Shown: piece by piece, positions 7,954-64,000 of the stretch | How the letters are laid out: each line of letters begins with the position of its first letter | Position numbering within the stretch: the first letter of the stretch is position 1 | NCBI RefSeq assembly: GCF_000426605.1 | Contig: NZ_AUFR01000013.1 | Span: 1-64,000 of the forward strand | DNA from: Propionibacterium acidifaciens DSM 21887 | Lineage (GTDB): Bacteria > Actinomycetota > Actinomycetes > Propionibacteriales > Propionibacteriaceae | Reading direction: 5' to 3' | Length of the DNA: 64,000 bases | The notes under the pieces: generated by a model | The model's database searches: none | Told to the model about the DNA's origin: nothing | Seen by the model: the letters and a program-made list of their open reading frames with translations, nothing else | Position numbers and translations under genes: made by a program

Positions 7954-9333
7954 ATGACACTCCTCACCTCGGACCGCCGAGCCGCGGCCCCGGCCAGACC
8001 GGGGCCGACCGGCCCCCGACGGGCCACCCACTACTTCGACGGGCTGCCCGTGCGGGCCGCCCACCGGCGCGTCTTCGTCCTCGTGATGATCGCCTACTTC
8101 TTCGACCAGCTCGACAACTGGAACTTCGGGTACATCGCACCGGCCCTGCGCAGCTCCTGGGGGCTGGGCCTGGAACGGATCGCGACGATCAACAGCGCCT
8201 ACTTCGTCGGCATGACCGTGGGGGGCCTGCTCGGCGGCTTCTGCTCGGACCGCTTCGGGCGCCGCAGGGTCTTCCTGCACGGCATGGCGCTGTTCAGCAC
8301 GGCCTCGGTCGTCAACGGCCTGGCCGGCGGCTTCGGGCTGTTCGTCGCCGCCCGCGCGCTGACGGGCGTCGGCCTGTTCGCCATGATGGTCTGCTCCCAC
8401 ACCTATCTGGCCGAGATCTCCCCGGGGGAGTCCCGCGGGCGCTGGCAGGGCCGGGTGGCCGCGGTCGGCTACTGCGCCGTGCCGGTCATCGGCATCGCCG
8501 CGAACCTCATCATCCCCCTCGGGGCGCAGGCCTGGCGGGCGCTGTTCATCCTCGGCGGGCTCGGCATCATCCCGCTGGCCCTGGCCTGGCGCTCCCTGCC
8601 GGAGTCGCCGCGCTGGCTCGTCTCCCGGAGGCGCGTCGCCGAGGCCGAGGCGACGGTCCGCGCGCTGACCGGCCACGACGTGGACCTCTCGCAGGCGGCC
8701 GCCCGCACCGGGCGCCCTCCCGGCCCGCTGACCAGCCTGCGGACGATCTTCTCGCGGGCCAACGCGCGACCCACCGCCGTCCTGCTCGTGCTCTTCGCCC
8801 TCGAGACGCCGGCGAGCTTCATCGTCCGCACCTGGATCACCACCCTCCTCGACGCCCAGGGCATGAGCATGCGCCTGGCCCTCGTCGCCACCTTCTGCAT
8901 GCAGATCGGCGTGCCCTTCGGCTGCTGGGTCTCCTCGCGCGTCTCCGACCTGGGCGGGCGCAAGTGGCCCATCGTGGCGCTGCTGCTGGCCGAGTCCGCC
9001 CTCGCGGTGTCCTTCGGGCACGTCCGCGGGCACTGGGCCCTCATCGTCGTCGGCTTCCTGCTCACCGCGAGCGGCATGGCGGTCGGCCTCATCAGCTGCA
9101 CCTACGCCACCGAGAACTACCCGACCCGGCTGCGCAACAGCGCCGACGGCGCGCACAACGCGGTCGGACGCTCCATGGTCGCCGCGACCCAGCCCCTCGT
9201 GCCCGGCCTGTTCGCCTCGGCCGGCTTCACCGGCGTCTTCACCGCCATCGCCGTCGGCCTGCTCCCCGCGGCGGCCCTCGTCGCCGCGGCGGGCCGGCGC
9301 ACCGGGGGACGCTCCCTCGAGGAGATCTCATGA
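7954..9333 (+). CDS. MFS transporter in sulfate-assimilation cluster
   Basis: A 459-residue major facilitator with about 12 hydrophobic segments. After a 35-residue cytoplasmic leader comes TM1 and then the loop 2-3 motif GGFCSDRFGRRRVF, typical of sugar-porter/AAHS-like MFS proteins. SPRWLVSRRR, marking the central loop, is near residue 215, and a second half-motif SRVSDLGGRKWPI follows TM8. The substrate is not encoded in any motif I can read. Its place as the first structural gene after the Cys leader peptide and 40 bases ahead of cysH suggests uptake of sulfate or an organosulfur compound, or export of a pathway product. Confidence 0.85.
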   Translation: MTLLTSDRRAAAPARPGPTGPRRATHYFDGLPVRAAHRRVFVLVMIAYFFDQLDNWNFGYIAPALRSSWGLGLERIATINSAYFVGMTVGGLLGGFCSDRFGRRRVFLHGMALFSTASVVNGLAGGFGLFVAARALTGVGLFAMMVCSHTYLAEISPGESRGRWQGRVAAVGYCAVPVIGIAANLIIPLGAQAWRALFILGGLGIIPLALAWRSLPESPRWLVSRRRVAEAEATVRALTGHDVDLSQAAARTGRPPGPLTSLRTIFSRANARPTAVLLVLFALETPASFIVRTWITTLLDAQGMSMRLALVATFCMQIGVPFGCWVSSRVSDLGGRKWPIVALLLAESALAVSFGHVRGHWALIVVGFLLTASGMAVGLISCTYATENYPTRLRNSADGAHNAVGRSMVAATQPLVPGLFASAGFTGVFTAIAVGLLPAAALVAAAGRRTGGRSLEEIS

Positions 9334-9373
9334 GCGGCCGACACGGACCGGACGGACGAGGAAGGACCCTGCC

Positions 9374-10078
9374 ATGACGAGAACGAGAACCGAGGACGAG
9401 CTGCGCGCCATCGCCGAGCGGGCGTCCCGCGAGCACGCCGACGACGACGCCGCCGAGCTCATGGCCTGGGCGGCGCGGACCTTCGGCCGCTCGATGGCGG
9501 TCGCCTGCTCGATGGCGGCGGACACGGCGGTCACCGACCTGGCCTCCAGGGCCCTGCCGGGGGTCGACGTGCTCTTCCTCGAGACCGGCTACCACTTCCC
9601 CGAGACCGAGGACCTGCGGGACGACCTGCCGATCCTCCAGGACATCACCCTGGTGGAGCTGCGGCCCGACCAGAGCGTGGCCGAGCAGGACGCGCAGTAC
9701 GGCCCCCGGCTGTACGAGCGCGATCCCAACGCCTGCTGCCGTCTGCGCAAGGTGGTCCCGCTCAACCGGGCGCTGGCCGGCTACGAGGCCTGGGTCACCG
9801 GGATCCGCCGCGAGGACAACGCGCTGCGCGCCCACGCCGGACTCGTCGAATGGGACGAGAGCCACCGGATGGTCAAACTCAACCCCATCGCGGCCTGGAG
9901 CGCCGACGAGCTCTTCGCCTACGTCGACGCCCACGACGTGCCGGTCAACCCCCTGCTCGGGCAGGGCTATCCATCCATCGGGTGCGCGACCTGCACGCGC
10001 AGGGTCGCCCCCGGACAGGACCCCAGGTCCGGCCGCTGGGCCGGCCTCACCAAGACGGAATGCGGGATCCACCTATGA
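9374..10078 (+). CDS. cysH: adenylyl-sulfate (APS) reductase
   Basis: This PAPS/APS-reductase family protein of 234 residues reduces activated sulfate to sulfite using thioredoxin. The P-loop-like region is FGRSMAVACSMAADTAV; FLETGYHFPETEDLRDDL is the usual substrate-binding stretch. It carries the cysteine pairs NACCRLRKV and GCATCTRR, which ligate a [4Fe-4S] cluster in APS reductases and are absent from true PAPS reductases. The catalytic cysteine lies in the terminal TECGIHL. No APS kinase (cysC) is seen nearby and CysN lacks a CysC domain, which agrees with direct use of APS. The stop overlaps the cysD start (ATGA). Confidence 0.95.
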   Translation: MTRTRTEDELRAIAERASREHADDDAAELMAWAARTFGRSMAVACSMAADTAVTDLASRALPGVDVLFLETGYHFPETEDLRDDLPILQDITLVELRPDQSVAEQDAQYGPRLYERDPNACCRLRKVVPLNRALAGYEAWVTGIRREDNALRAHAGLVEWDESHRMVKLNPIAAWSADELFAYVDAHDVPVNPLLGQGYPSIGCATCTRRVAPGQDPRSGRWAGLTKTECGIHL

Positions 10079-11016
10079 GCACCACCACGAGCACCACCGG
10101 GCCGGCGTCCCCGGCGGGAGCGCCCGGCGACGACCACCTCGACGCGCTCGAGAACGAGTCGGTCCACATCATCCGGGAGGTCACCGCCGAGGCCGAGAGG
10201 CCCGTCCTGCTGTTCTCCGGCGGCAAGGACTCGGTCGTCATGCTGCACATCGCCCGCAAGGCCTTCTGGCCGGCCCCGCTGCCGTTCGGCCTGCTCCACG
10301 TCGACACCGGGCACAACTTCCCCGAGGTCCTCGCCTTCCGCGACGACGTCGTGGCCCGCCACGGGCTGCGGCTGACCGTCGAGAGGGTGCAGGACTGGAT
10401 CGACGACGGGCGCCTCGTCGAGCGCCCCGACGGGACGCGCAATCCCCTGCAGACCCAGCCGCTGCTGCACGCCATCACCGCGGGCGGCTTCGACGCGGTC
10501 TACGGCGGGGGCCGCCGCGACGAGGAGAAGGCCCGCGCCAAGGAGCGGATCGTCTCGCTGCGCGACGCCTTCGGCCAGTGGAACCCGCGCAACCAGCGCC
10601 CCGAACTGTGGGGCCTGTACAACACGCGGCACCTGCCCGGGGAGCACGTGCGGGTCTTCCCGCTGTCGAACTGGACCGAGCTCGACGTGTGGAGCTACAT
10701 CGTGCGCGAGGGCATCGAGCTGCCCTCCCTGTACTACGCCCACGAGCGCCGGGTCTTCCGGCGGAACGGCATGTGGATGCCGCTGGGCCCCGTCACCCGC
10801 CCCCGCGACGACGAGCGGGTCGTCACGCGGACCGTGCGCTACCGCACCGTGGGCGACATGTCGTGCACCGGGGCCGTCGAGTCGACGGCCGGCGACGCCG
10901 CGGCGGTGCTCGCCGAGGTCGCCGCGACGACGCTGACCGAGCGCGGGGCCACCCGCGCCGACGACAGGCTCTCCGAGGCCGCCATGGAGGACCGCAAGAA
11001 GGAGGGCTACTTCTGA
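10075..11016 (+). CDS. cysD: sulfate adenylyltransferase subunit 2
   Basis: CysD is the catalytic small subunit of ATP sulfurylase, which makes APS from sulfate and ATP with the GTPase subunit CysN. The protein has 313 residues. The PP-loop is LLFSGGKDSVVMLHIA, followed by FGLLHVDTGHNFPEV, a GGRRDEEKARAKER segment and the C-terminal EDRKKEGYF, typical of the family. The ATG overlaps the cysH stop by four bases and the stop overlaps the cysN ATG (TGATG), so the three genes are translationally coupled. Confidence 0.97.
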   Translation: MSTTTSTTGPASPAGAPGDDHLDALENESVHIIREVTAEAERPVLLFSGGKDSVVMLHIARKAFWPAPLPFGLLHVDTGHNFPEVLAFRDDVVARHGLRLTVERVQDWIDDGRLVERPDGTRNPLQTQPLLHAITAGGFDAVYGGGRRDEEKARAKERIVSLRDAFGQWNPRNQRPELWGLYNTRHLPGEHVRVFPLSNWTELDVWSYIVREGIELPSLYYAHERRVFRRNGMWMPLGPVTRPRDDERVVTRTVRYRTVGDMSCTGAVESTAGDAAAVLAEVAATTLTERGATRADDRLSEAAMEDRKKEGYF

Positions 11017-12266
11017 TGAGTGAACTGCTGCGTCTCGCCACCGCGGGCAGCGTCGACGACGGCAAGTCCACCCTCGTGGGCCGGCTGCTCCACGACACGA
11101 AGAACATCATGATCGACCAGTACTCCGCGGTGGAGCGGGCCTCCGCCGACCGCGGCCTGGACCAGACCGATCTCGCCCTGCTCACCGACGGGCTGCGCGC
11201 CGAGCGCGAGCAGGGCATCACCATCGACGTCGCCCACCGCTACTTCGCCACCCCGCGACGCTCGTTCATCCTGGCCGACTGCCCCGGCCACGTGCAGTAC
11301 ACGCGCAACACCGTCACCGGCGCCTCCACCGCCCAGCTCATCGTCGCCCTCGTCGACGTGCGCCACGGCATCCTGGAGCAGACCCGTCGCCACCTGGCCG
11401 TCGCGGCGCTGCTGCGCGTGCCCCACGTGGTGGTGGCCCTCAACAAGATCGACCTGGTCGACTACGACCGCCGGGTCGTCGAGGAGCTCGCCGAGCGGGT
11501 CCGCGAGCTGGGCGCCCGGCTCGGCATCGCCGAGCTCACCGTCATCCCCGTGAGCGCGCTGCTCGGCGACAACGTCGTGGAGCGCTCCGGGCGGACGCCC
11601 TGGTACGAGGGGCCCAGCCTCATGGAGCACCTCGAGCGGGTGCCCGTCGAGCAGCCCCAGGATGACGAGCCGGGGCGCTTCCCAGTGCAATACGTGCTCC
11701 GCCCCGGGTCCGGCGCGGGCGAGCGCTTCCGCGACTACCGCGGCTACGCGGGCCGGGTGGAGCGGGGCTCCTTCCGGGTCGGGGACGAGGTGCGTGTGCT
11801 GCCCGGCGGGCAGCGCACGCGGATCGTCGGCATCGACCTCCCGGGGGGCGGACGGGCCGAGCGCGCCGGGGCCGGACGGTCGGCGACGCTGCGGCTGGGC
11901 GACGAGATCGACGTCGCGCGCGGGGATCTCATCGCCGCCGATCCCGGCCCCGAGCCCGTCAGCACCCTCGACGCGACGGTGTGCTGGCTGGGCGACCGGG
12001 CGCTGCACGTCGGGGACCGCCTGCTCGTCAAGCACACGACGCGGACGGTCACCGCCATCGTCACCGCCATCGACGGGCGCCTCGACCTCGCCGCACTCGA
12101 CGAGGAGCAGGCCGACGAGCTGGCCCTCAACGACATCGGACGGATCGGGCTGACGCTGGCCGAACCGCTGTGCCCCGACCGTTACGGCGACTCGCGGACG
12201 ACGGGCTCGTTCATCCTCGTCCACCCGCAGGCCGGCAACACACTGGCGGCCGGCATGGTGGCCTGA
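11016..12266 (+). CDS. cysN: sulfate adenylyltransferase subunit 1 (GTPase)
   Basis: CysN is an EF-Tu-like GTPase that couples GTP hydrolysis to APS synthesis by CysD. The 416-residue protein shows GSVDDGKSTLVGRLLHDTK (G1), EREQGITIDVAHRYF (G2/effector), DCPGHVQYTRN (G3) and NKIDLVD (G4). Two beta-barrel domains follow, ending near the C-terminus without an APS-kinase extension. It is the last gene of the cluster. Sulfite reductase and later cysteine-pathway genes are not in this window. Confidence 0.96.
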   Translation: MSELLRLATAGSVDDGKSTLVGRLLHDTKNIMIDQYSAVERASADRGLDQTDLALLTDGLRAEREQGITIDVAHRYFATPRRSFILADCPGHVQYTRNTVTGASTAQLIVALVDVRHGILEQTRRHLAVAALLRVPHVVVALNKIDLVDYDRRVVEELAERVRELGARLGIAELTVIPVSALLGDNVVERSGRTPWYEGPSLMEHLERVPVEQPQDDEPGRFPVQYVLRPGSGAGERFRDYRGYAGRVERGSFRVGDEVRVLPGGQRTRIVGIDLPGGGRAERAGAGRSATLRLGDEIDVARGDLIAADPGPEPVSTLDATVCWLGDRALHVGDRLLVKHTTRTVTAIVTAIDGRLDLAALDEEQADELALNDIGRIGLTLAEPLCPDRYGDSRTTGSFILVHPQAGNTLAAGMVA

Positions 12267-54250: not shown

Positions 54251-54368
54251 ATGACCGGCACGCCGGCAAGGGCATGGCAACCCCCGCACGGCGACTACGC
54301 ACGATGGCAGGATGACCATGGGTATGGGACGCTCCCCGGAAGCGACCCGCACGACACAAGGAGGTCCA

Positions 54369-55814
54369 ATGACGGAACAGCCCACCAAGGCGGACATCGG
54401 CGTCGTCGGCATGGCGGTGATGGGCTCGAACCTGGCCCGCAACCTCGCCCACCACGGCTACACCGTGGCCGTGTACAACCGCAGCGGCGACAAGACCCGG
54501 GCCCTCGTCGAGGACCACGGCTCGGAGGGGAGTTTCCTCGCGTCCGAGACCCCCGAGGAGTTCGTGGCCTCGCTTCGCGCCCCCCGCTCGATCATCCTCA
54601 TGGTCAAGGCCGGCGCCCCGACCGATGCCACGATCGGGACCCTGCTGCCGCTGCTGTCGCCCGGCGACATCATCATGGACGGCGGCAACGCGTACTTCCG
54701 CGACACCATCCGCCGGGAGAGGGAGATCTCGGCCAAGGGCTTCCACTTCGTCGGCGCCGGCATCTCTGGCGGCGAGCACGGCGCCCTGACCGGCCCGGCC
54801 ATCATGCCCGGCGGCACGCCCGAGTCGTACCGGATCATCGGCCCGATGCTCGAGACGATCTCGGCGCACTACGAGGGCGAGCCCTGCTGCGCCTGGATGG
54901 GCCCCGACGGAGCCGGCCACTTCGTCAAGATGATCCACAACGGCATCGAGTACTCCGACATGCAGGTCATCGGCGAGGCCTACCAGCTGCTGCGCGGCGC
55001 CGGCCTGTCGAACGCGCAGTGCGCCGACGTCTTCGCGCGCTGGAACACCGGCGACCTGTCGAGCTATCTCATCGAGATCACCGCCGAGGTGCTGCGCGCC
55101 AAGGACCCGCGCACCGGCAGGGACCTGGTCGAGATCATCAAGGACCGGGCCCGGATGAAGGGCACCGGCACGTGGACCGTCCAGACCGCCCTCGAGCTCG
55201 GCGTGCCCGCCAACGGCATCGCCGAGGCCGTGTTCGCCCGCGCCGAGTCCAGCCACGACGAGCTGCGCGCCGCCGGCCGGGCCGCCCTCCAGGGCCCCGA
55301 CGGCGCCGTCCGCGTGGACGACCGGGAGGCCTTCATCGAGGACGTCCACAGGGCGCTGTGGTGCTCGAAGGTCGTCAGCTACTCGCAGGGCTTCGACGAG
55401 ATCCGCACCGGCGGCAGGGAGTTCGGCTGGGACATCGACGTGGCCGAGGCCGCGAGGATCTGGCGCGACGGCTGCATCATCCGCGCCGCCCTGCTGGAGC
55501 GCATCCGCAGGGAGTACACCGCCGACCCGGGCCTCGTCTCGCTCATGTGCGCCTCCTCGGTGGCCCCCGAGATGGCCGCCAACCAGGACGCGTGGCGGCG
55601 CGTCGTGGCCACGGCGGCGGAGTCGGGCGTCCCGGCCCCGGTGTTCAGCGCAACCCTGGCCTACTACGACATGGCCCGCGCCCCGCGCGTGAACGCCGCC
55701 CTCACGCAGGCCCAGCGCGACTTCTTCGGCTCGCACACCTACGAGCGCGTCGACGACGAGGGCCACTTCCACATCGAGTGGACGGCCGACCGCTCGGAGA
55801 CGAGGATCGACTGA
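54369..55814 (+). CDS. gnd: 6-phosphogluconate dehydrogenase, decarboxylating
   Basis: Gnd oxidises and decarboxylates 6-phosphogluconate to ribulose-5-phosphate in the pentose phosphate pathway. The 481-residue protein starts after AAGGAGG and contains IGVVGMAVMGSNLARNLAHH, DGGNAYFRDTIRREREI, GAGISGGEHGALTGPAIMPG and GAGHFVKMIHNGIEYSDMQ (catalytic Lys), the long-form NADP-type enzyme. It ends with a strong terminator. The neighbouring LacI regulator and LarA-like gene suggest it is also tied to gluconate-type catabolism. Confidence 0.96.
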   Translation: MTEQPTKADIGVVGMAVMGSNLARNLAHHGYTVAVYNRSGDKTRALVEDHGSEGSFLASETPEEFVASLRAPRSIILMVKAGAPTDATIGTLLPLLSPGDIIMDGGNAYFRDTIRREREISAKGFHFVGAGISGGEHGALTGPAIMPGGTPESYRIIGPMLETISAHYEGEPCCAWMGPDGAGHFVKMIHNGIEYSDMQVIGEAYQLLRGAGLSNAQCADVFARWNTGDLSSYLIEITAEVLRAKDPRTGRDLVEIIKDRARMKGTGTWTVQTALELGVPANGIAEAVFARAESSHDELRAAGRAALQGPDGAVRVDDREAFIEDVHRALWCSKVVSYSQGFDEIRTGGREFGWDIDVAEAARIWRDGCIIRAALLERIRREYTADPGLVSLMCASSVAPEMAANQDAWRRVVATAAESGVPAPVFSATLAYYDMARAPRVNAALTQAQRDFFGSHTYERVDDEGHFHIEWTADRSETRID

Positions 55815-55882: not shown

Positions 55883-55983
55883 GCGCGCAGAGAGAGCACC
55901 GCCTGCCGTGGTCGGCGCGCGCCTCCCCTCGACACGAGCCCCGGGACGGACCGGAAGCGGGCCGCCAAAGACACCAGCAACCC

Positions 55984-56489
55984 GCGAAGACGACCAGCAG
56001 GGCTGTTGCTGTCATCAACGGCATCGAGGCGGTCAAGAGCCCGCGGTTCGTGAAAACCCTGAACGGCAAGAAGGCCCTCGCCGCGGAGGCCCTCGACCCG
56101 GCTTGTCGGCTGGTCGGGTTGAAAAGCCGTGTCATGAACATGCCAGCCACCCGAATCTCCGCGACGGAAGTCATTGGCGACTATCACGAGCTCTGGCGGG
56201 TCGAGAAGTCGTTCGGGATATCGAGGAGCGACCTGAAGCCCGCCCGATCTTTCATCGCAGCCACGAGGTGATCGAAGCCCGCCTCACCACCATGATGGCC
56301 GCACCCGCCAGCGCCCAGCGCCTGCAAATAATCAACAGGAAATTCATCGCAGAAGTCATCGAAACGCTTGGACTGCTCCACGAAATGAACGTCAATATCG
56401 TCGGGAAAATTCTGCACGTCCACGACGGGATCGCACCCGCAGCCCAAACCATCCTCGACACCCTCTACCTCAGCTGGCCCTCACGCTGA
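55984..56489 (+). pseudogene. decayed IS1634-family transposase, C-terminal remnant
   Basis: Two frames together give the C-terminal part of an IS1634/IS1549-type DDE transposase. The first has AVAVINGIEAVKSPRFVKTL, AGLK-like VGLKSRVMN and EVIGDYHELWRVEKSFGISR; the second resumes as ARPIFHRSHEVIEARLTTMM and ends with IVGKILHVHDGIAPAAQTIL. In intact relatives these are continuous (YHDLWRVEQSFRMSKxDLxARPxFHR). The break is near 56237, where one missing G in AAGCCCGCCCG explains it. The N-terminal two thirds with the first catalytic Asp residues are gone. The remnant sits exactly between the gnd terminator and the defence-like operon. Confidence 0.85.
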
Positions 56490-56691: not shown

Positions 56692-57489
56692 TCAGACAAC
56701 TGCCCGCCGCGCTCCCCTGTACTGGACGGACCTGAAGCAGGCATCGGCCTCGGCATCCACGACCGAGAGGATCTCCTCATCCGATCGGATATCGAGCAGC
56801 AGTGGTCCTGTTCGCTCAGCGATCCGCTTCATGAGCTGACGGGAGAACTCCGTACGTCCACCCGGGTATTTCGAACCGCGCTGGATGATCGTGCGCGCCG
56901 CGGCCACAACCAGCCGTCGGTTCCTGGCCACCGCAGTGCGTTCCTCGAGGATCGCCCCGAACTCATTCTCGCCCAGTCGCGGCCTGGCCTCTTCCATGAC
57001 CTCACCCAGAATGATCCACCGGCGCCAGGAGAGCTTCAGGTAGTTGCGGTCACGGGTCGTCGTCTGGTGACCGATCCACTGCTCGGCGGGCAGGATGAAC
57101 TGACCGTCCTTCCGCTCCCCCGGCCAGCGCCTGTTGACGACATCGGGGAAGACCGCCAAGGACAGGTACGACCATATGCCGTCATGCGCAGCATCCGCTG
57201 GAATCGGATGGATCACCTCCTCGATCGCCTGTCCCAACGCGACACCGAGCGCATCGCGGCCGGCTCGGGAACGCGTATCGACCCCATCGATCCGGTCGAT
57301 GATCTCCCGACGCCAGTGCTCGATGTCCTCAATGGGGGCAGGAGAGCCGCCGGTCGGATTCGGCGTACCCGATACGTCGAGTCTGACCAGTGTCTCGGGC
57401 GACGCCCCTTCCTCGAGAGCACGGGCGTGATTCACGAGCAGCTCGCTCGCCTGTCCGGTGGACAATCGTGGAATGAGGAGTCGGCTCAT
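56692..57489 (-). CDS. DUF6339-family protein, last gene of defence-like operon
   Basis: A 265-residue protein matching, as far as I recall the family, DUF6339. It has RLLIPRLSTGQASELLVNHA at the start, a conserved centre DGIWSYLSLAVFPDVVNRRW and RDRNYLKLSWRRWIILGEVM, and a basic helical C-terminus (RQLMKRIAERTGPLLLDIRS). There is no recognised catalytic motif, membrane helix or signal peptide; the many Trp, Arg and acidic residues suit a nucleic-acid- or protein-binding role. The ATG overlaps the stop of the 295-residue gene (ATGA). The base composition is lower in G+C than the core genes left of it. It probably serves as an accessory subunit of the system. Confidence 0.8.
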   Translation of the reverse strand: MSRLLIPRLSTGQASELLVNHARALEEGASPETLVRLDVSGTPNPTGGSPAPIEDIEHWRREIIDRIDGVDTRSRAGRDALGVALGQAIEEVIHPIPADAAHDGIWSYLSLAVFPDVVNRRWPGERKDGQFILPAEQWIGHQTTTRDRNYLKLSWRRWIILGEVMEEARPRLGENEFGAILEERTAVARNRRLVVAAARTIIQRGSKYPGGRTEFSRQLMKRIAERTGPLLLDIRSDEEILSVVDAEADACFRSVQYRGARRAVV

Positions 57490-58373
57490 GATTTCGCCTT
57501 CAAGAATCCAGTAGTTCTTTGGAGAAGCGCGCAGACCCGACCCGGGTCATCGCGCATCAGCTCCACCGCTCCACGCAGGGGCTGCCCCAAAAAGATATCG
57601 CACAGGGAACCGATGACTGCGCCTGCACTGCCCTCCTGGTATTCCACTCCCAGGTCGTCCCGATCATGAACAGCCAGTTTCAGGAGCAGCTGGAGCAGTA
57701 CATCCCGTTTCAGCACGGATAGAGCGGTATCAGATTTTCCGTGCACAAGTTTACCACCTTCCGAGTGCGCAGTATTAACATACAATCTGACGGCACTCAA
57801 GTATGGCACCGCGAGATCCTCGTCTTGAAACTTGAGCACCCAGACGCTGCCAGTCGGGAAATCTCCGCCCGCGAATTCAAAAGCTTCGATCGGAAACGAC
57901 GAACCGTCCCCCTCGAGCCTGAACCGATAGGGTCTGTTCAGCCCGTAAAGCCTACTCCCCCGCTGATGCGCCGCACGGTTTTCGGGCGCCGGACCATCAG
58001 GAGCATCCAGAACGATCTCGTAGCGGACCTCGAGTTCCTCAGCCGCCTCACCAGCCGGGACTCGCACCTTCAGACTCACTGGCTGGTCACTATTATTCAA
58101 GGGACTGATACCCAGAAATCGTTTGCCCGTGGCTGGACAATCGACGCGCAGAACGGCGCGAATAACGGCGAGCCCAGGATTTCTTGCAAGTCCGGTCGAG
58201 GATAACAGCAAGTCGTTCTTGATCGAGAGCTCACCCTCGATCGTCACCTCGGTAAGATAATCCCATTCTGGAATCTCCGAGCCGGGCTCATAAGCCTTTC
58301 CCCAGATCCTGAGCCGGGGAGGCTGACAGACAACCGCATTATTCGCTGAGGCCCGGAAGGGCATGAGTCTCAT
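57486..58373 (-). CDS. unrecognised 295-residue protein of defence-like operon
   Basis: I do not recognise this family. The product is 295 residues, starts MRLMPFRASANNAVVCQPPR and overlaps both neighbours by four bases (ATGA). The N-terminal 200 residues look beta-rich (LTEVTIEGELSIKNDLLLSS, VSLKVRVPAGEAAEELEVRY, YRFRLEGDGSSFPIEAFEFA), suggesting a beta-sandwich. The last 90 are helical (LLLKLAVHDRDDLGVEYQEG, IFLGQPLRGAVELMRDDPGR). No catalytic motif is evident. Tight coupling between the GHKL ATPase and DUF6339 genes implies it is an obligate partner, perhaps a structural or sensor subunit. Confidence 0.8.
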   Translation of the reverse strand: MRLMPFRASANNAVVCQPPRLRIWGKAYEPGSEIPEWDYLTEVTIEGELSIKNDLLLSSTGLARNPGLAVIRAVLRVDCPATGKRFLGISPLNNSDQPVSLKVRVPAGEAAEELEVRYEIVLDAPDGPAPENRAAHQRGSRLYGLNRPYRFRLEGDGSSFPIEAFEFAGGDFPTGSVWVLKFQDEDLAVPYLSAVRLYVNTAHSEGGKLVHGKSDTALSVLKRDVLLQLLLKLAVHDRDDLGVEYQEGSAGAVIGSLCDIFLGQPLRGAVELMRDDPGRVCALLQRTTGFLKAKS

Positions 58374-60160
58374 TTCGTGACCTCACTTCGAAAAGTGCAG
58401 TTCACCGCCGCGTTCTCCGGATAGCTGATATCAACGTAGAAGACATCACCGCCATGGACTTGAAGACGCTCCGCAGCCGTCACCTCGCCCTCCGCCGTAG
58501 TCCATGAGTCCACCCGTACCTGTTCAGCGTCTTTAATGACGCCGCTCCCCTCGACGACGACCGCAAGATCAGGGGTGACCGTCATAAGATTCGCCCCGGC
58601 GGAGGCCCGCAATTCCAACCGAGTAAGAGCTCGGCCATCAGATGCATCGGGCATGGGCAGCAGCTCCTGGGAAAGCACCTCGACCGAGGCTCTTCTTTTG
58701 GACCCACGAGATCTGCTCCGTCGTCCAGTGGGCATCCCGCTGGCCAAGTCCCCGTCCGCGCCAACAGCCAATACGTCCAATGAGGCTGCCAATCGTCCGG
58801 TCGAGACCCGTTCCCCGGGCTGAACATCATCATCGACAGGATTCAGATAATCCTTTAGGTCCTCCTTGATTCGCCTCAGCGCGACTCTAACAAATGTCCC
58901 CTTCCGCCTTTCGAGTGAATTCGGCTTCCAGTCATCATGAGTTGGCGGTTCGGCTTCTGCGAAGGCGTTGTCGAGCTCGCGAATCGGTTTGAACACGGCA
59001 ACCCAGGAATCTCTGCCGTTCTGAAGATCAGGATATTCTTTTTCGCACACGACCAACTCAGGCTCTCGCATGAGGGTGACGCTGTTCACGAGTTCGTCGT
59101 CCGAGCCGAAGGGGCAGGGTGCGATTGCCAGATGGCCGAGAAGTTGCTTCGGGTTTCCGCACCGGATCTCTGAAACATCAATGAAGGCCTCCTCGGCTTT
59201 TTGTCCGGACTGCACCTTGCGAATCGCAGTCAGACAGCTCTCCCGTGAGGCTCTGATCCGGTCATCCCAACCGGCAGCGAGATCCACCGGGTGCCCATTC
59301 TCGATGAGACTGATCTTCATCTGTTTATCAACTGGTTGACCGGGAATCATTTTGGGCCATAGATTGCGGGCAACAGCATCAGCAGTTGCCTGTACGAAGC
59401 CTTCTTGCCCGCCGTCGTCGAATGCGGGGTCCAGAATCATGATCGAGGTACCGGTCTCCTGTTCGCCGAAACCTCGCTCGAACAACTTCGTACCCAATCC
59501 ATGGGCGGCATCGCCCTCAATGGGCTGAACATTCATACCGTCTTTCAGTCGCTGATCCCTGCCCCACCACTGCTGTCCAGTATATCGCTTCTCACCCATG
59601 CTGAAATTCGGGATGATCGAGATCGCGATGAATCGTTCCTCGAAGCCCTCTCCGCCTCTGATCCTTGTCCAGACGATGATCGTCCCGCACTGACTCGCCC
59701 TGAACGCTGCGGTCTTCCCGAAGCCATAGGTGCCACCGCCGTACTCCAGGTCGCGCGGGGCACCCACCGTCAAGATGAAATCACGAAAATTCGTCGGCTC
59801 GCCCTTGCCAACATGAACATCGTTCCGAGTCGGCCCATCGAGCCCTGTAGTCCCCCGATCGTGCACCTCAATAGCCGAGACCCTGGACCGACGAATAACC
59901 TTGGCGAGCTCACTGCCGGGAAAGGTCTCGGGGAAGACGAAGTTCCGTAGCACACTCATTCTCGGGGCGTCAAGGGTCACGAATCTCATCTGGTATTCAG
60001 GGATCACGCCGTGACCGATATGCGCATCCCAGCTGTTCTGCGCGGTCTCTCTCAGAAAGAGTTTCGGCGCCGCCAGACTCGTCCCCAGGAGCTTCTTCGT
60101 CCCCTCACCCGCGATGTCGCCGTCACGGAAGGGCTTGGGAACCCAGTCAAGCCTGATCAT
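58370..60160 (-). CDS. GHKL ATPase, MutL/MORC-like
   Basis: A 596-residue protein with the Bergerat (GHKL) ATP-binding fold. The N-box is FLRETAQNSWDAHIG (E38, N42, D45), matching the E-x-x-x-N-x-x-D-A pattern of MutL and MORC. The second motif is IEVHDRGTTGLDGP (D101), and the lid with the glycine box is GGGTYGFGKTAAF (141-153). About 400 further residues, partly beta-rich, follow and would hold the S5-like and output domains. Iyer, Abhiman and Aravind described such MutL homologues in restriction-modification operons with Z1 and REase-fold partners. The start at 60160 overlaps the previous gene by 14 bases; a GTG or ATG 21 bases upstream is less likely. Confidence 0.9.
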   Translation of the reverse strand: MIRLDWVPKPFRDGDIAGEGTKKLLGTSLAAPKLFLRETAQNSWDAHIGHGVIPEYQMRFVTLDAPRMSVLRNFVFPETFPGSELAKVIRRSRVSAIEVHDRGTTGLDGPTRNDVHVGKGEPTNFRDFILTVGAPRDLEYGGGTYGFGKTAAFRASQCGTIIVWTRIRGGEGFEERFIAISIIPNFSMGEKRYTGQQWWGRDQRLKDGMNVQPIEGDAAHGLGTKLFERGFGEQETGTSIMILDPAFDDGGQEGFVQATADAVARNLWPKMIPGQPVDKQMKISLIENGHPVDLAAGWDDRIRASRESCLTAIRKVQSGQKAEEAFIDVSEIRCGNPKQLLGHLAIAPCPFGSDDELVNSVTLMREPELVVCEKEYPDLQNGRDSWVAVFKPIRELDNAFAEAEPPTHDDWKPNSLERRKGTFVRVALRRIKEDLKDYLNPVDDDVQPGERVSTGRLAASLDVLAVGADGDLASGMPTGRRSRSRGSKRRASVEVLSQELLPMPDASDGRALTRLELRASAGANLMTVTPDLAVVVEGSGVIKDAEQVRVDSWTTAEGEVTAAERLQVHGGDVFYVDISYPENAAVNCTFRSEVTK

Positions 60161-61127
60161 GTTCAGCCCGCCTCTCACCAAGAAGGGTTTTCACTTGCCC
60201 CCCGGTAAGAGGCTGCTCAGATGTCAGATCCAAGACGTATTTCATTCTCGTGATCGCATGCCGTCGACTCTCGGGAAGATCGCTGGAACGCAGGCCGGGG
60301 AAGTCATCGGTCACCTCCCAGATCACCGGGGATTTCGCGACCTCATATCGTGCATCATCGGAGTCGACGCCCAATAAGAAGCCGCACTCAGCAAGTCTCT
60401 TGACGAGCGCTGACATCGGCAGACCCAGCTCCGTCAGCAGCTCAACCTGATCATGAATGGATCTCCCCGAGGGGGAATCCCTCACGGAGACGCGTACGAG
60501 CAGGAGCGCACGGCCCTGGGGCGGGTCCAGCTGATCAACACTGGAGATGACCACCGACAACCCCTCCTGGGATGAGGTTATGACCTCGAGATCGGCGCGA
60601 GGAGTCATGAAACTATGCGCACCTCCAGCAGGCCCGACCCAGGACTCCACTGCGCGATACGGATTCCCGATGGCAAGAAGTCGCAATACCTCCAGCTCCC
60701 CGAAAATCGCTTTTCGCAGCTTTTCTGATATAGCCGGGGACGCCGGGCTCAGCAGCTGCCGCCATTCTTCCAGCACCGTCTGAAGCACGGATTCCGGTGC
60801 ACTGTCATCCGTCTGAACGCGACGCGTAATATCATCGACCAGAGAGGCGAAGACTTCATGGAATTGATCAACACCGCACATCAGGTCCATGTACCGCCGC
60901 CCTGTCTCGGGGTGCTTCCAGTGAATTAGCGAGAGGGGGCCGCCACTAATTTCAACGAAGGAGTAATCATCTGCGATCGGCATCAGAAGATGCCAGCCTC
61001 CGTTTTGATCCACTCCATATGCCATGGGATGATTAGAATCCCGCGTGGCGCGCACGATCATCGTCGCGGTTTCGCCGCCGTACAGAGAGGCGAGAAGAAG
61101 TCCGAACTCTTTTCGCGATCCGTTCAC
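60147..61127 (-). CDS. PD-(D/E)XK-fold protein (DUF4420/PF14390-like), active site altered
   Basis: A 326-residue protein with the layout of the DUF4420 PD-(D/E)XK family that accompanies Z1 proteins. The family core is present: FGELEVLRLLAIGN (E144), then AVESWVGPAGGAHSFMTPRA and DLEVITSSQEGLSVVISSVD, then RVSVRDSPSGRSIHDQVELL. From memory, active members have HDF and E-V-K at these places; here they read HSF (171-173) and E-V-I (181-183), so the metal-binding Asp and the catalytic Lys seem lost. The protein may bind DNA or scaffold the complex and not cut. It begins with GTG overlapping the Z1 stop (GTGA). Confidence 0.82.
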   Translation of the reverse strand: MNGSRKEFGLLLASLYGGETATMIVRATRDSNHPMAYGVDQNGGWHLLMPIADDYSFVEISGGPLSLIHWKHPETGRRYMDLMCGVDQFHEVFASLVDDITRRVQTDDSAPESVLQTVLEEWRQLLSPASPAISEKLRKAIFGELEVLRLLAIGNPYRAVESWVGPAGGAHSFMTPRADLEVITSSQEGLSVVISSVDQLDPPQGRALLLVRVSVRDSPSGRSIHDQVELLTELGLPMSALVKRLAECGFLLGVDSDDARYEVAKSPVIWEVTDDFPGLRSSDLPESRRHAITRMKYVLDLTSEQPLTGGQVKTLLGERRAEHDQA

Positions 61128-63742
61128 TCCTCATCCTCCCAATCGTCGTCCTCCTCGGGCTCGCCCACATCGACATCGGCCGCCAAGGGCTTGACGCTGA
61201 CAAAATTTCCATATTCTGCATCAGAATGATCCACTGCGGGATAGACGATGCTGAATCCGAGAAGATCCTCACCCACTCCTTGTGGCATGTCCATCCGAGT
61301 AGTCAGCTCGAGTTTATTCTTCGACCGATGACTGATCGGGTAGATCATGACAAGCCCGTCCCCGCCGGCGAGTCTCCTTCTGATGACCATGCGCTGCGCA
61401 TCAGTGGCATTCGGCATGTCTGCATAAGCCTCCGGCTCGATGTCAGCCAATCGATCAGCCGATGACATGATCGCTTTAAAATTCAGCTTTTCCACCGTGC
61501 TGCCCCGCAGCGGAGTGCGCCGAAGCATCGGCACACGAATCCCCGCAACGGGCAGCACGCCAAGAGAATCCATCGCCCCCGGCATCGAATTGCCCGCAAG
61601 AATAATATTCCAACTGCGCTCTTGCGCATATTTCATCAGCCAGTCGATCGTTGCACCGCGAAGATCAGGATCGGAGAAGATCCTCTGGTCAGGATGAAAG
61701 GAATAGCCTTGAAGGAAACCGATGATCGCCCGCGTATCGATTCCGCGAACGATCCAACGACGACCACCCGCCCTCAACGGCCGAGGCTCGCATCCGCTCA
61801 GAAGCCGCTCTACGGCTCGAAGATTCCTACGCGTTGCATCAGGCCTGCCATCCATGATGAAGGTCTGTTGCCGGGCATTACTCATACTGAGGCGAACGAG
61901 CCGAGCATTCGCCATTTTCCCGGCAGAAGTGATCTCTAAACGGCCTGGGTGGCATCGCACCTTCACCCCGACCTGTCTCGGCGTGTACTCACTGTCCTCG
62001 ACGGACCTGATCTCATCACGCAAATCCTTCTCGACGAGTGCCAGGAAAGCATAATCACGATCGAGGCCATCGGCCACCCAGATGCGAAGAAGATCTTCAT
62101 AACCTGACCGATAACCGAACCAGCGCCCCATCTGCATGAGGGTGTCATAGGTGTTCGAGGAGCGAGTGAAGTACGAAACGACGAGGCCTTCCAGGGTCAG
62201 GCCTCGAGACAGAGTGCCGCCGCCCACGACGATTACGGTCCGTGGGCGTCCGGCATCATAATTCAGTCGATCCTCTGATACTCCATTATCAACAATGACC
62301 TCGATGTTTCGAAGTACGCCCGGCAGCTGTTCAGCGACTGCATCCCACTCGGGAGTTGATCGCCCGGCCGGTGCAGCAACTCTCGCGTGCTCGTTCCGCC
62401 AGGACTCGTAGAACTGGGCGAGCCCCGCTTCGCGATGGAATTCAACCTCGCGTCTCATGCGCTGGACTAGAGTCAAAAACCGCTCGCGCATCGCGAAATG
62501 GGGTGCGGTGTAGTGCGTGGTATGGACCAGCATGGACGAATGCCCCGCGTATCCTCGTGCTCTTCGCACAGCACTAGCGACGACGAACCATCTGACCGCT
62601 GAGATCAGAGAGGAGGGCGGCTCGGGATCGAAACTCTCCCGCTGCAGCTTCTTCGACGGCGGCTTCAAGACCCATGAGTCCTTCGCCGGGATGATCCGGA
62701 CCAGGTCGGGCCCCTCGGCCGCAGGCTCAGAATCGTCGACATCCGCGTCGGCGAGCCCGAAAACCTGCTCCGCACCGAGATAACCATCACCCGCGGTCAA
62801 CGTGTAAACAAAATCAGAAGGAAAAAGATCGGCCTCATCATCGGGATCCATCAGCACATTGGCGAACGGTGTAGCCGTATAGGCCACATACGAACCACTC
62901 GGAATCAGATCCCAGATCCTGCGCATCACAGCATTGATCGCAGAAATCTTCTTCTTTTCCTTCTCACTGTTGGGTGTGGCCTGATCCGCCTCATCATCTA
63001 TAATCAGAATCGGGCATTTCCTGCGGATCTCCTCAGGAACATTCCGGAGACTCGCCTCCAAGTTCTTGAGTCGCGTCTTATTCTTCTTGACGACAGCGCA
63101 GAGACGCACATCGCTATGGGAGCCCATGAGGGCCAACAGCTCGCTCCGCCGGTCGAAATCATTGTTCTCAGCACTGGTCAAGTGATACCAGAACTCCCGA
63201 TCGACGAAGAGATCTCGATCCAGACGGCTCTGCGTCTGCTCGCGCAGGTTATTATAGAGGCCTGATAGCACGATGACGAACCGATATCCCATATCGACAG
63301 CCCGAGCGATCACCCCGGAAAAATGACGAGTCTTACCTGACTGGACATTACCCATGACCAGGCCCTTGCGACGCGCACCCGGCTGATTGGGCAGGGCCAG
63401 CAGCGAGCACACCTCCTCAGTGGTTCGAGACAGCTCATCGATACCGAAGGCGTTCTTTCGCTGAAGCATGTCAAGATATCGGCACCACTGAGCACCGCTC
63501 ATGGCGGAGGTCGGCATATCCATCGAACCCTGATACGCGGATTCATCGATGACCGCATGCCTCAGAACGCGATTCCCAGCCATCTCTGACTTGAGGGAAG
63601 TCACGATCTGACGAACGGCTTCCCGTGACACGAATCGCCTGTACTCATGAGCCACCCGGTCAGCCGCCTCATCGATCGATACGCGATCTGATATGACCCG
63701 GTTCATGATCTCTGCAGAGATTCTATCGCGCTCGTCGCTCAT
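61124..63742 (-). CDS. Z1-domain superfamily II helicase-like ATPase
   Basis: An 872-residue protein with a Z1 domain. Walker A is VMGNVQSGKTRHF (131-138) and Walker B is ILIIDDEADQATPN (249-253). Motif III-like AYTATPFANVLMDP follows, and the Z1 hallmark GGGTLSRGLTLEGLVVSYF with YDTLMQMGRWFGYRSGYEDL marks motifs V and VI. A terminal acidic tail (EEDDDWEDEE) ends the protein. Z1 ATPases occur in restriction-like and Mza-type defence operons. The ATG of MSDERDRI is chosen because GAGG lies eight bases upstream and an upstream TGA overlaps it (ATATGAG); a GTG 33 bases earlier is possible. The sequence is clearly AT-richer than the core. Confidence 0.92.
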   Translation of the reverse strand: MSDERDRISAEIMNRVISDRVSIDEAADRVAHEYRRFVSREAVRQIVTSLKSEMAGNRVLRHAVIDESAYQGSMDMPTSAMSGAQWCRYLDMLQRKNAFGIDELSRTTEEVCSLLALPNQPGARRKGLVMGNVQSGKTRHFSGVIARAVDMGYRFVIVLSGLYNNLREQTQSRLDRDLFVDREFWYHLTSAENNDFDRRSELLALMGSHSDVRLCAVVKKNKTRLKNLEASLRNVPEEIRRKCPILIIDDEADQATPNSEKEKKKISAINAVMRRIWDLIPSGSYVAYTATPFANVLMDPDDEADLFPSDFVYTLTAGDGYLGAEQVFGLADADVDDSEPAAEGPDLVRIIPAKDSWVLKPPSKKLQRESFDPEPPSSLISAVRWFVVASAVRRARGYAGHSSMLVHTTHYTAPHFAMRERFLTLVQRMRREVEFHREAGLAQFYESWRNEHARVAAPAGRSTPEWDAVAEQLPGVLRNIEVIVDNGVSEDRLNYDAGRPRTVIVVGGGTLSRGLTLEGLVVSYFTRSSNTYDTLMQMGRWFGYRSGYEDLLRIWVADGLDRDYAFLALVEKDLRDEIRSVEDSEYTPRQVGVKVRCHPGRLEITSAGKMANARLVRLSMSNARQQTFIMDGRPDATRRNLRAVERLLSGCEPRPLRAGGRRWIVRGIDTRAIIGFLQGYSFHPDQRIFSDPDLRGATIDWLMKYAQERSWNIILAGNSMPGAMDSLGVLPVAGIRVPMLRRTPLRGSTVEKLNFKAIMSSADRLADIEPEAYADMPNATDAQRMVIRRRLAGGDGLVMIYPISHRSKNKLELTTRMDMPQGVGEDLLGFSIVYPAVDHSDAEYGNFVSVKPLAADVDVGEPEEDDDWEDEE

Positions 63743-64000
63743 ATCAGGATCCTCAGCATCCCCTGATGGCTGCACCGGTCGTCCTCCAAAGCCCCTGCAT
63801 GTATTTCGAGACGCCCTGGGCCAACAGGATCGGCATCGTTGACATCATCACAATCCCGCCCCTGATGATTTCTACGTGCGAAGCCGAAACGACAGCGATC
63901 ACCCGGCCTATCCGCATGACCTCGAGTACGACCTCCTGCATCGAAGAGGCGGCCAACGGCCAGCCAGGATCCCGCGTTGAGCCTCGCCCCGTGCCAGTTC
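63743..64000 (-). other. unresolved upstream segment of defence-like operon
   Basis: This stretch precedes the Z1 gene and runs off the right edge. Two minus-strand frames stay open from the edge. One ends at the TGA that overlaps the Z1 ATG, as an upstream operon gene would. The other has the better GC third-position bias and ends in LWRTTGAAIRGC at the stop covering 63753-63755. Neither tail resembles a cytosine methyltransferase, a Vsr endonuclease or another family I know. A plus-strand frame is also open. I cannot say which, if any, is coding. Confidence 0.4.

Follow-up and report, generated by a model that had tools for sequence, protein, structure and literature searches.

What is the five-gene operon that lies at the right-hand end of a 64,000-nucleotide stretch of the genome of Propionibacterium acidifaciens DSM 21887 (GCF_000426605.1, NZ_AUFR01000013.1, positions 1–64,000; hereafter the window), and does it still defend its host? 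A first-pass annotation, made from the sequence alone, had proposed a candidate defence system of five minus-strand genes. The ORF list bears out five overlapping intact reading frames in the proposed order (Table 1), and the start assigned to Z1 is the probable one. Membership of a restriction-like family also stood; active restriction did not, because the Dcm and Vsr partners are missing and the nuclease is degenerate, and as an active restriction system the operon is thus a poor candidate. Our data indicate that it is probably a disarmed version of an ATP-dependent restriction system that is widespread, little studied and linked to cytosine methylation.

Table 1. Features of the operon and its surroundings (window positions).
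Feature	Position	Strand	Evidence or remark
Z1-domain SFII-type NTPase	61124..63742 (ORF to 63775; likely start 63742)	-	Pfam Z1, E 6.7e-67
DUF4420, PD-(D/E)XK-family nuclease subunit, catalytically degenerate	60147..61127	-	Pfam DUF4420, 2.3e-37
Codon of Ser172 (active-site Asp in relatives)	60612..60614	-	AGT; P. australiense GAC
Codon of Ile183 (active-site Lys of E-x-K in relatives)	60579..60581	-	ATA; P. australiense AAG
GHKL ATPase, paraMORC2 type	58370..60181 (likely ATG start 60160)	-	conserved motifs
N295, 295-aa protein, core component	57486..58373	-	beside GHKL in 86/86 loci
DUF6339, all-helical core component	56692..57489	-	Pfam DUF6339, 1.2e-4; 85/86 loci
Dcm stub (C5-cytosine methyltransferase)	63739..64000, ORF on to contig 64098	-	tblastn, blastn
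gnd (6-phosphogluconate dehydrogenase)	54312..55814	+	left flank of insertion site

The first issue is the class to which the operon belongs. Iyer, Abhiman and Aravind (2008; PMC2292703) described Z1 helicases that carry the motif DThhQXuRhFG and are encoded beside RE-fold, GHKL, methylase and Vsr genes, and the proposal that Z1, RE-fold and GHKL genes form the core of restriction-like operons agrees with their work. In the window, Z1 conserves its Walker A motif GLVMGNVQSGKT, DDEAD, and DTLMQMGRWFG, which corresponds to the published motif. The GHKL protein has no match in Pfam, as is true of N295, but its ATP-site motifs follow one another in order (the N box RExxQNSWDA, DRGTTGL, GGGTYGFGK and TGTS) and are conserved across relatives. 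Its later part holds an invariant ExxxH (EPPTHDDW; E411/H415), and ExxxH in the S5 domain is the hallmark of paraMORC2 (Iyer 2008, PMC2292703). The GHKL assignment rests on these motifs, since a direct profile comparison with MORC is weak, with an alignment confined to the glycine-rich motif (E 0.002, probability 14%). Judged by such features the operon is of the Z1 / RE-fold / paraMORC type, the third operon type of Iyer and co-workers. It differs from their description in three respects: the methylase and Vsr neighbours – frequent, though not universal – are missing from the window copy; the active site of its RE-fold nuclease is lost; and N295 and DUF6339 emerge here as fixed core genes.

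Evidence for this last point came from the distribution of relatives. A scan of genome contigs with the single protein gave no match; an alignment-based scan of the genomes of 84,980 species with the GHKL protein succeeded, returning 330 relatives, of which the best 80 were fetched. Adding the window and the five loci of a previous phylum search brought the set to 86 loci. Iterated profiles found N295 in 86, DUF6339 in 85, Z1 in 84 and DUF4420 in 81 of them; a C5 methyltransferase (Dcm) was present in 80, Vsr in 71, and a separate MORC protein in 25. Because GHKL served as bait, the 80 fetched are the nearest of the 330, and near-duplicates are included, the figures count loci and not independent events. 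The one locus lacking DUF6339 is cut by a contig end. Among the best 80 of the 330 relatives the order Z1-DUF4420-GHKL-N295-DUF6339 is nearly fixed, and is common to Actinomycetota, Chloroflexota, Pseudomonadota and others. N295 and DUF6339 are thus conserved with Z1, DUF4420 and GHKL, so that the neighbourhood criterion named in the first-pass annotation does not refute it, and their near-constant presence in a fixed order makes them core parts of the system. No GHKL homologue was found in phage records at E <= 1e-5. Close to the first system in Cyanobium (L057, 16211–19986) lies a second, divergent pair of DUF6339 and GHKL genes.

The system's tie to cytosine methylation shows in the prevalence of Dcm beside the operon, and in Streptomyces, where a single protein of 608 aa combines DUF6339 with Dcm. 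In locus L066 (12867–14693) and other Streptomyces loci this DUF6339–C5 methyltransferase fusion is followed by a second C5 methyltransferase.

What the two core proteins do is less readily read from their structures. DUF6339, whose Pfam score of 22.4 bits lies slightly below the cut-off of 23.2, is modelled by AlphaFold2 as all-helical (pLDDT 93); N295 is modelled as an N-terminal beta-sandwich with C-terminal helices (pLDDT 91, pTM 0.70). Fold searches gave no Foldseek match at E <= 0.001 and a VIA Z of at most 6.1 for DUF6339, and generic beta-sandwich matches (Z at most 8.1) for N295; these matches were considered as functional clues and rejected as uninformative. Sequence searches of the PDB returned no match for the GHKL and N295 profiles, and for DUF6339 weak matches to designed helical proteins only. 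There exists, then, in many phyla, a rigid seven-part system of restriction type, two of whose core proteins are still functionally unassigned.

GHKL, N295 and DUF6339 also form a portable trio, found beside DISARM-type genes and beside a nuclease-like NOV_C gene. In Acidipropionibacterium (L021, 9005–13496; L022, 8977–13484) the trio stands behind a NOV_C gene (PD-(D/E)XK-like, PDC-S36); Z1, DUF4420, Dcm and Vsr are all missing from the fetched stretch, and together the four genes are possibly a compact system of their own. On a plasmid of Halomicrobium urmianum (L125, 8878–12507) a distant trio, whose N295 and DUF6339 are recognised at 95.5% and 97.5% probability, is oriented divergently to a DrmMII methyltransferase gene, and genes for DUF1998, helicase and PLD proteins lie 3–7 kb away. 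This likeness to DISARM class 2 suggests that in haloarchaea that system may carry the trio as an add-on; the DISARM genes themselves are absent beside the window operon. A second haloarchaeal plasmid, from Halobacterium sp. DL1, also carries a match to the GHKL gene. In one further locus (L016) Z1 and the trio adjoin DISARM-like genes.

Comparison with other known systems sets the operon apart. The first-pass annotation had taken it for a variant of Mza, with GHKL as the MutL-like component and the last two genes in place of an AIPR component. PADLOC does match window proteins to MzaC (1e-85) and MzaD (6e-9), of which Z1 and DUF4420 are distant homologues, but the scores fall far short of the curated thresholds, at 348.8 bits against 1500 for the first and 62.9 bits against 420 for the second. 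GHKL has no match to MzaB: in full loci it is the separate, optional MORC gene, and not the paraMORC2-type GHKL gene, that matches MzaB (9e-64). Membership of Mza was rejected on these grounds, and with it the supposed substitution for AIPR. The PADLOC candidate PDC-M33 is matched weakly and in part, GHKL to PDC-M33A (4e-9, 33.8 bits) and DUF6339 to PDC-M33C (2e-4, 18.8 bits); N295 matches no PADLOC model. CglI/NgoAVII offer the parallel of a C5 methyltransferase combined with a Z1-domain ATPase, whose ATP hydrolysis is needed for the cleavage of unmethylated DNA (PMC4267653). They differ in cutting with a PLD-B3 nuclease, and GHKL, N295 and DUF6339 are not among their three genes.

The window copy is exceptional in two losses, both of which the first-pass annotation had missed. 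The first concerns the methyltransferase. Directly upstream of Z1 there is a stub of Dcm, recognisable in protein (tblastn, 37% over 57 aa, E 2e-7) and in DNA (blastn, 61% over 226 nt, E 5e-13). Its Dcm-like part (~63919–64098) amounts to about 60 N-terminal codons, and motif I is broken; the remainder of Dcm is deleted and Vsr is entirely gone. Beyond the right edge, where a methyltransferase, Vsr or AIPR gene might have been sought, none is seen and thiD comes directly next; nor do the ORF lists for the intervals Z1–thiD and DUF6339–gnd show any further gene of the operon. Pfam models that were positive in control genomes found neither a C5 methyltransferase nor Vsr in the whole genome, a draft of 85 contigs in which a small plasmid could be missed. 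The joint loss of Dcm and Vsr fits the pattern in Caulobacter, where losing a C5 methyltransferase does harm only if a Vsr-like protein is present (PMC12907096). The nearly flat codon-position pattern of the stub (39/39/44%) led us to consider long selective maintenance after the loss of Dcm; this was dropped, since the N-terminus of Dcm diverges fast in intact genes too and a stretch of 57 codons is too small.

The second loss concerns the nuclease. DUF4420 proteins carry the motif HD(F/V)...E(V/I/A)K, whose D and K are kept in 80/80 aligned relatives. The window protein has D172S and K183I, alone among the 81 aligned, and in a second draw from the family and class, which partly overlaps the first, every protein other than that of the window has both residues. 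The E-D-ExK motif of the RE fold, present in P. australiense, is broken in the window protein by the loss of D and K, although the protein clearly belongs to the family and its reading frame is intact and full-length.

Could errors of sequencing or assembly have disguised an operon that is actually complete? The draft state of the genome, in 85 contigs, lends this some room, but the two codons together would have to hold three or more wrong bases with all frames left open, and the gap at Dcm and Vsr falls within a single unbroken stretch of sequence that contains a diverged stub and is bordered left and right by orthologous flanks. We regard such an explanation as hardly credible.

If the complete system works as its parts suggest by analogy, a Dcm-type enzyme would mark self DNA, Vsr would repair the T:G mismatches that arise from 5-methylcytosine, Z1 NTPase and paraMORC2 ATPase would act on unmarked DNA, and DUF4420 would cut it. 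MORC-type ATPases have been proposed by Iyer and co-workers to loop DNA between recognition and cleavage sites. N295 and DUF6339 would belong to the core of the complex, probably with a part in assembly or in target recognition, and the operon family as a whole may serve in defence. For the window copy, the loss of Dcm, Vsr and the catalytic Asp and Lys predicts that self DNA goes unmarked and that DUF4420 is unable to cut. Since a cell would not tolerate a restriction nuclease that stays active when its methyltransferase is missing, the nuclease was likely inactivated before Dcm was lost, or together with it.

A further question is whether another nuclease has taken over, so that the operon still defends the cell, as the first-pass annotation proposed, with cutting by an enzyme encoded elsewhere and self protected by other means. 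DUF4420 may not be the sole nuclease of the system, given its absence from some related loci (L016, L074 and L097; three loci have Z1 without it, and on an Agrobacterium plasmid the GHKL gene likewise comes straight after Z1). The trio, moreover, occurs with other partners, both NOV_C in Acidipropionibacterium and DISARM-type genes on a haloarchaeal plasmid, and the window genome holds methyltransferase genes of the N6/N4 type. Yet the ORF lists show no nuclease gene next to the operon, and among relatives that keep DUF4420 intact, the ones checked do have a C5 methyltransferase: in L030, L031 and L064, where Dcm is not in the fetched stretch, it is present elsewhere in the genome. In A. thoenii, without Z1 and DUF4420, the genome has no Dcm (six further genomes were checked). 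Substitution by another nuclease thus appears very unlikely. With neither Dcm nor Vsr in its fetched stretch, L064 (Pseudonocardia oroxyli) is possibly another decaying copy; its GHKL gene is matched in two overlapping reading frames (9305–11838).

The disarmed copy has four other genes, and these are intact, which leaves either a relic or a non-cleaving assembly. As far as sequence can tell, Z1, GHKL, N295 and DUF6339 keep their conserved motifs and are free of signs of decay, near-invariant positions being retained at 115/118 in Z1 and at 52/53, 8/8 and 10/11 in the other three; a dead relic fits this less easily. The operon might instead be retained as a working machine that does not cleave, in which an ATP-driven Z1 translocase and a paraMORC2 clamp, with N295 and DUF6339, would bind or compact and so silence incoming foreign DNA, or serve some other cell function, with DUF4420 as a structural subunit. 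In keeping with such a role, motifs are intact in all four genes, DUF4420 is open over its full length with both catalytic changes lying within the conserved stretch TPRADLEV, and related loci can do without DUF4420 altogether. Nor is dN/dS relaxed: against P. australiense the five genes give 0.11–0.17, within the range of an intact pair. But these values are averaged over the whole branch, so that a recent loss would look alike, and dN/dS of the window genes gives no date for the losses, just as the Dcm stub is too short for dating. The mechanism is also without example in the operon family, and we consider it unlikely here. In the preferred reading, a disarmed restriction system, the window copy represents a natural double loss, of methyltransferase and of nuclease activity, in which both the survival of a cell after losing its methyltransferase and the activity of the remaining ATPases without cutting can be tested.

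The surroundings of the operon bear on how it came to be there. P. australiense has at the identical site, between gnd and thiD, the full and intact set Dcm-Vsr-Z1-DUF4420-GHKL-N295-DUF6339, and its flanks share 86–87% DNA identity with those in the window. In two other Propionibacterium genomes gnd adjoins thiD, in one with a gap of 76 bases, and the site is empty. Simple vertical inheritance shared with P. australiense is rejected, because dS is 0.24–0.31 in flanking genes and 1.3–2.1 in the operon genes, far above the flanks; the operon alleles either predate the split of the species or entered the same site separately. Composition is likewise distinct. The block is AT-richer than its surroundings, as had been noted (58% GC versus ~72%), and GC3 is 0.60–0.76 in the operon versus 0.96–0.98 in flanking genes. 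Taken together, the contrasts in dS and GC3 point to a separate history of the operon alleles, through transfer or allele replacement at one hotspot.

The transposase remnant said to border the operon on its 3′ side could not be confirmed, having no Pfam match; the stretch concerned (55908–56489, between gnd and the operon) has no matching DNA in P. australiense and is a possible remnant. The contig goes on to 75,952 bases, and beyond the window thiD is followed by other genes that look unrelated to the operon. At the very end of the contig (75645–75950; L002, 15645–15950) a fragment of an IS630-like DDE transposase adjoins an SfsA gene.
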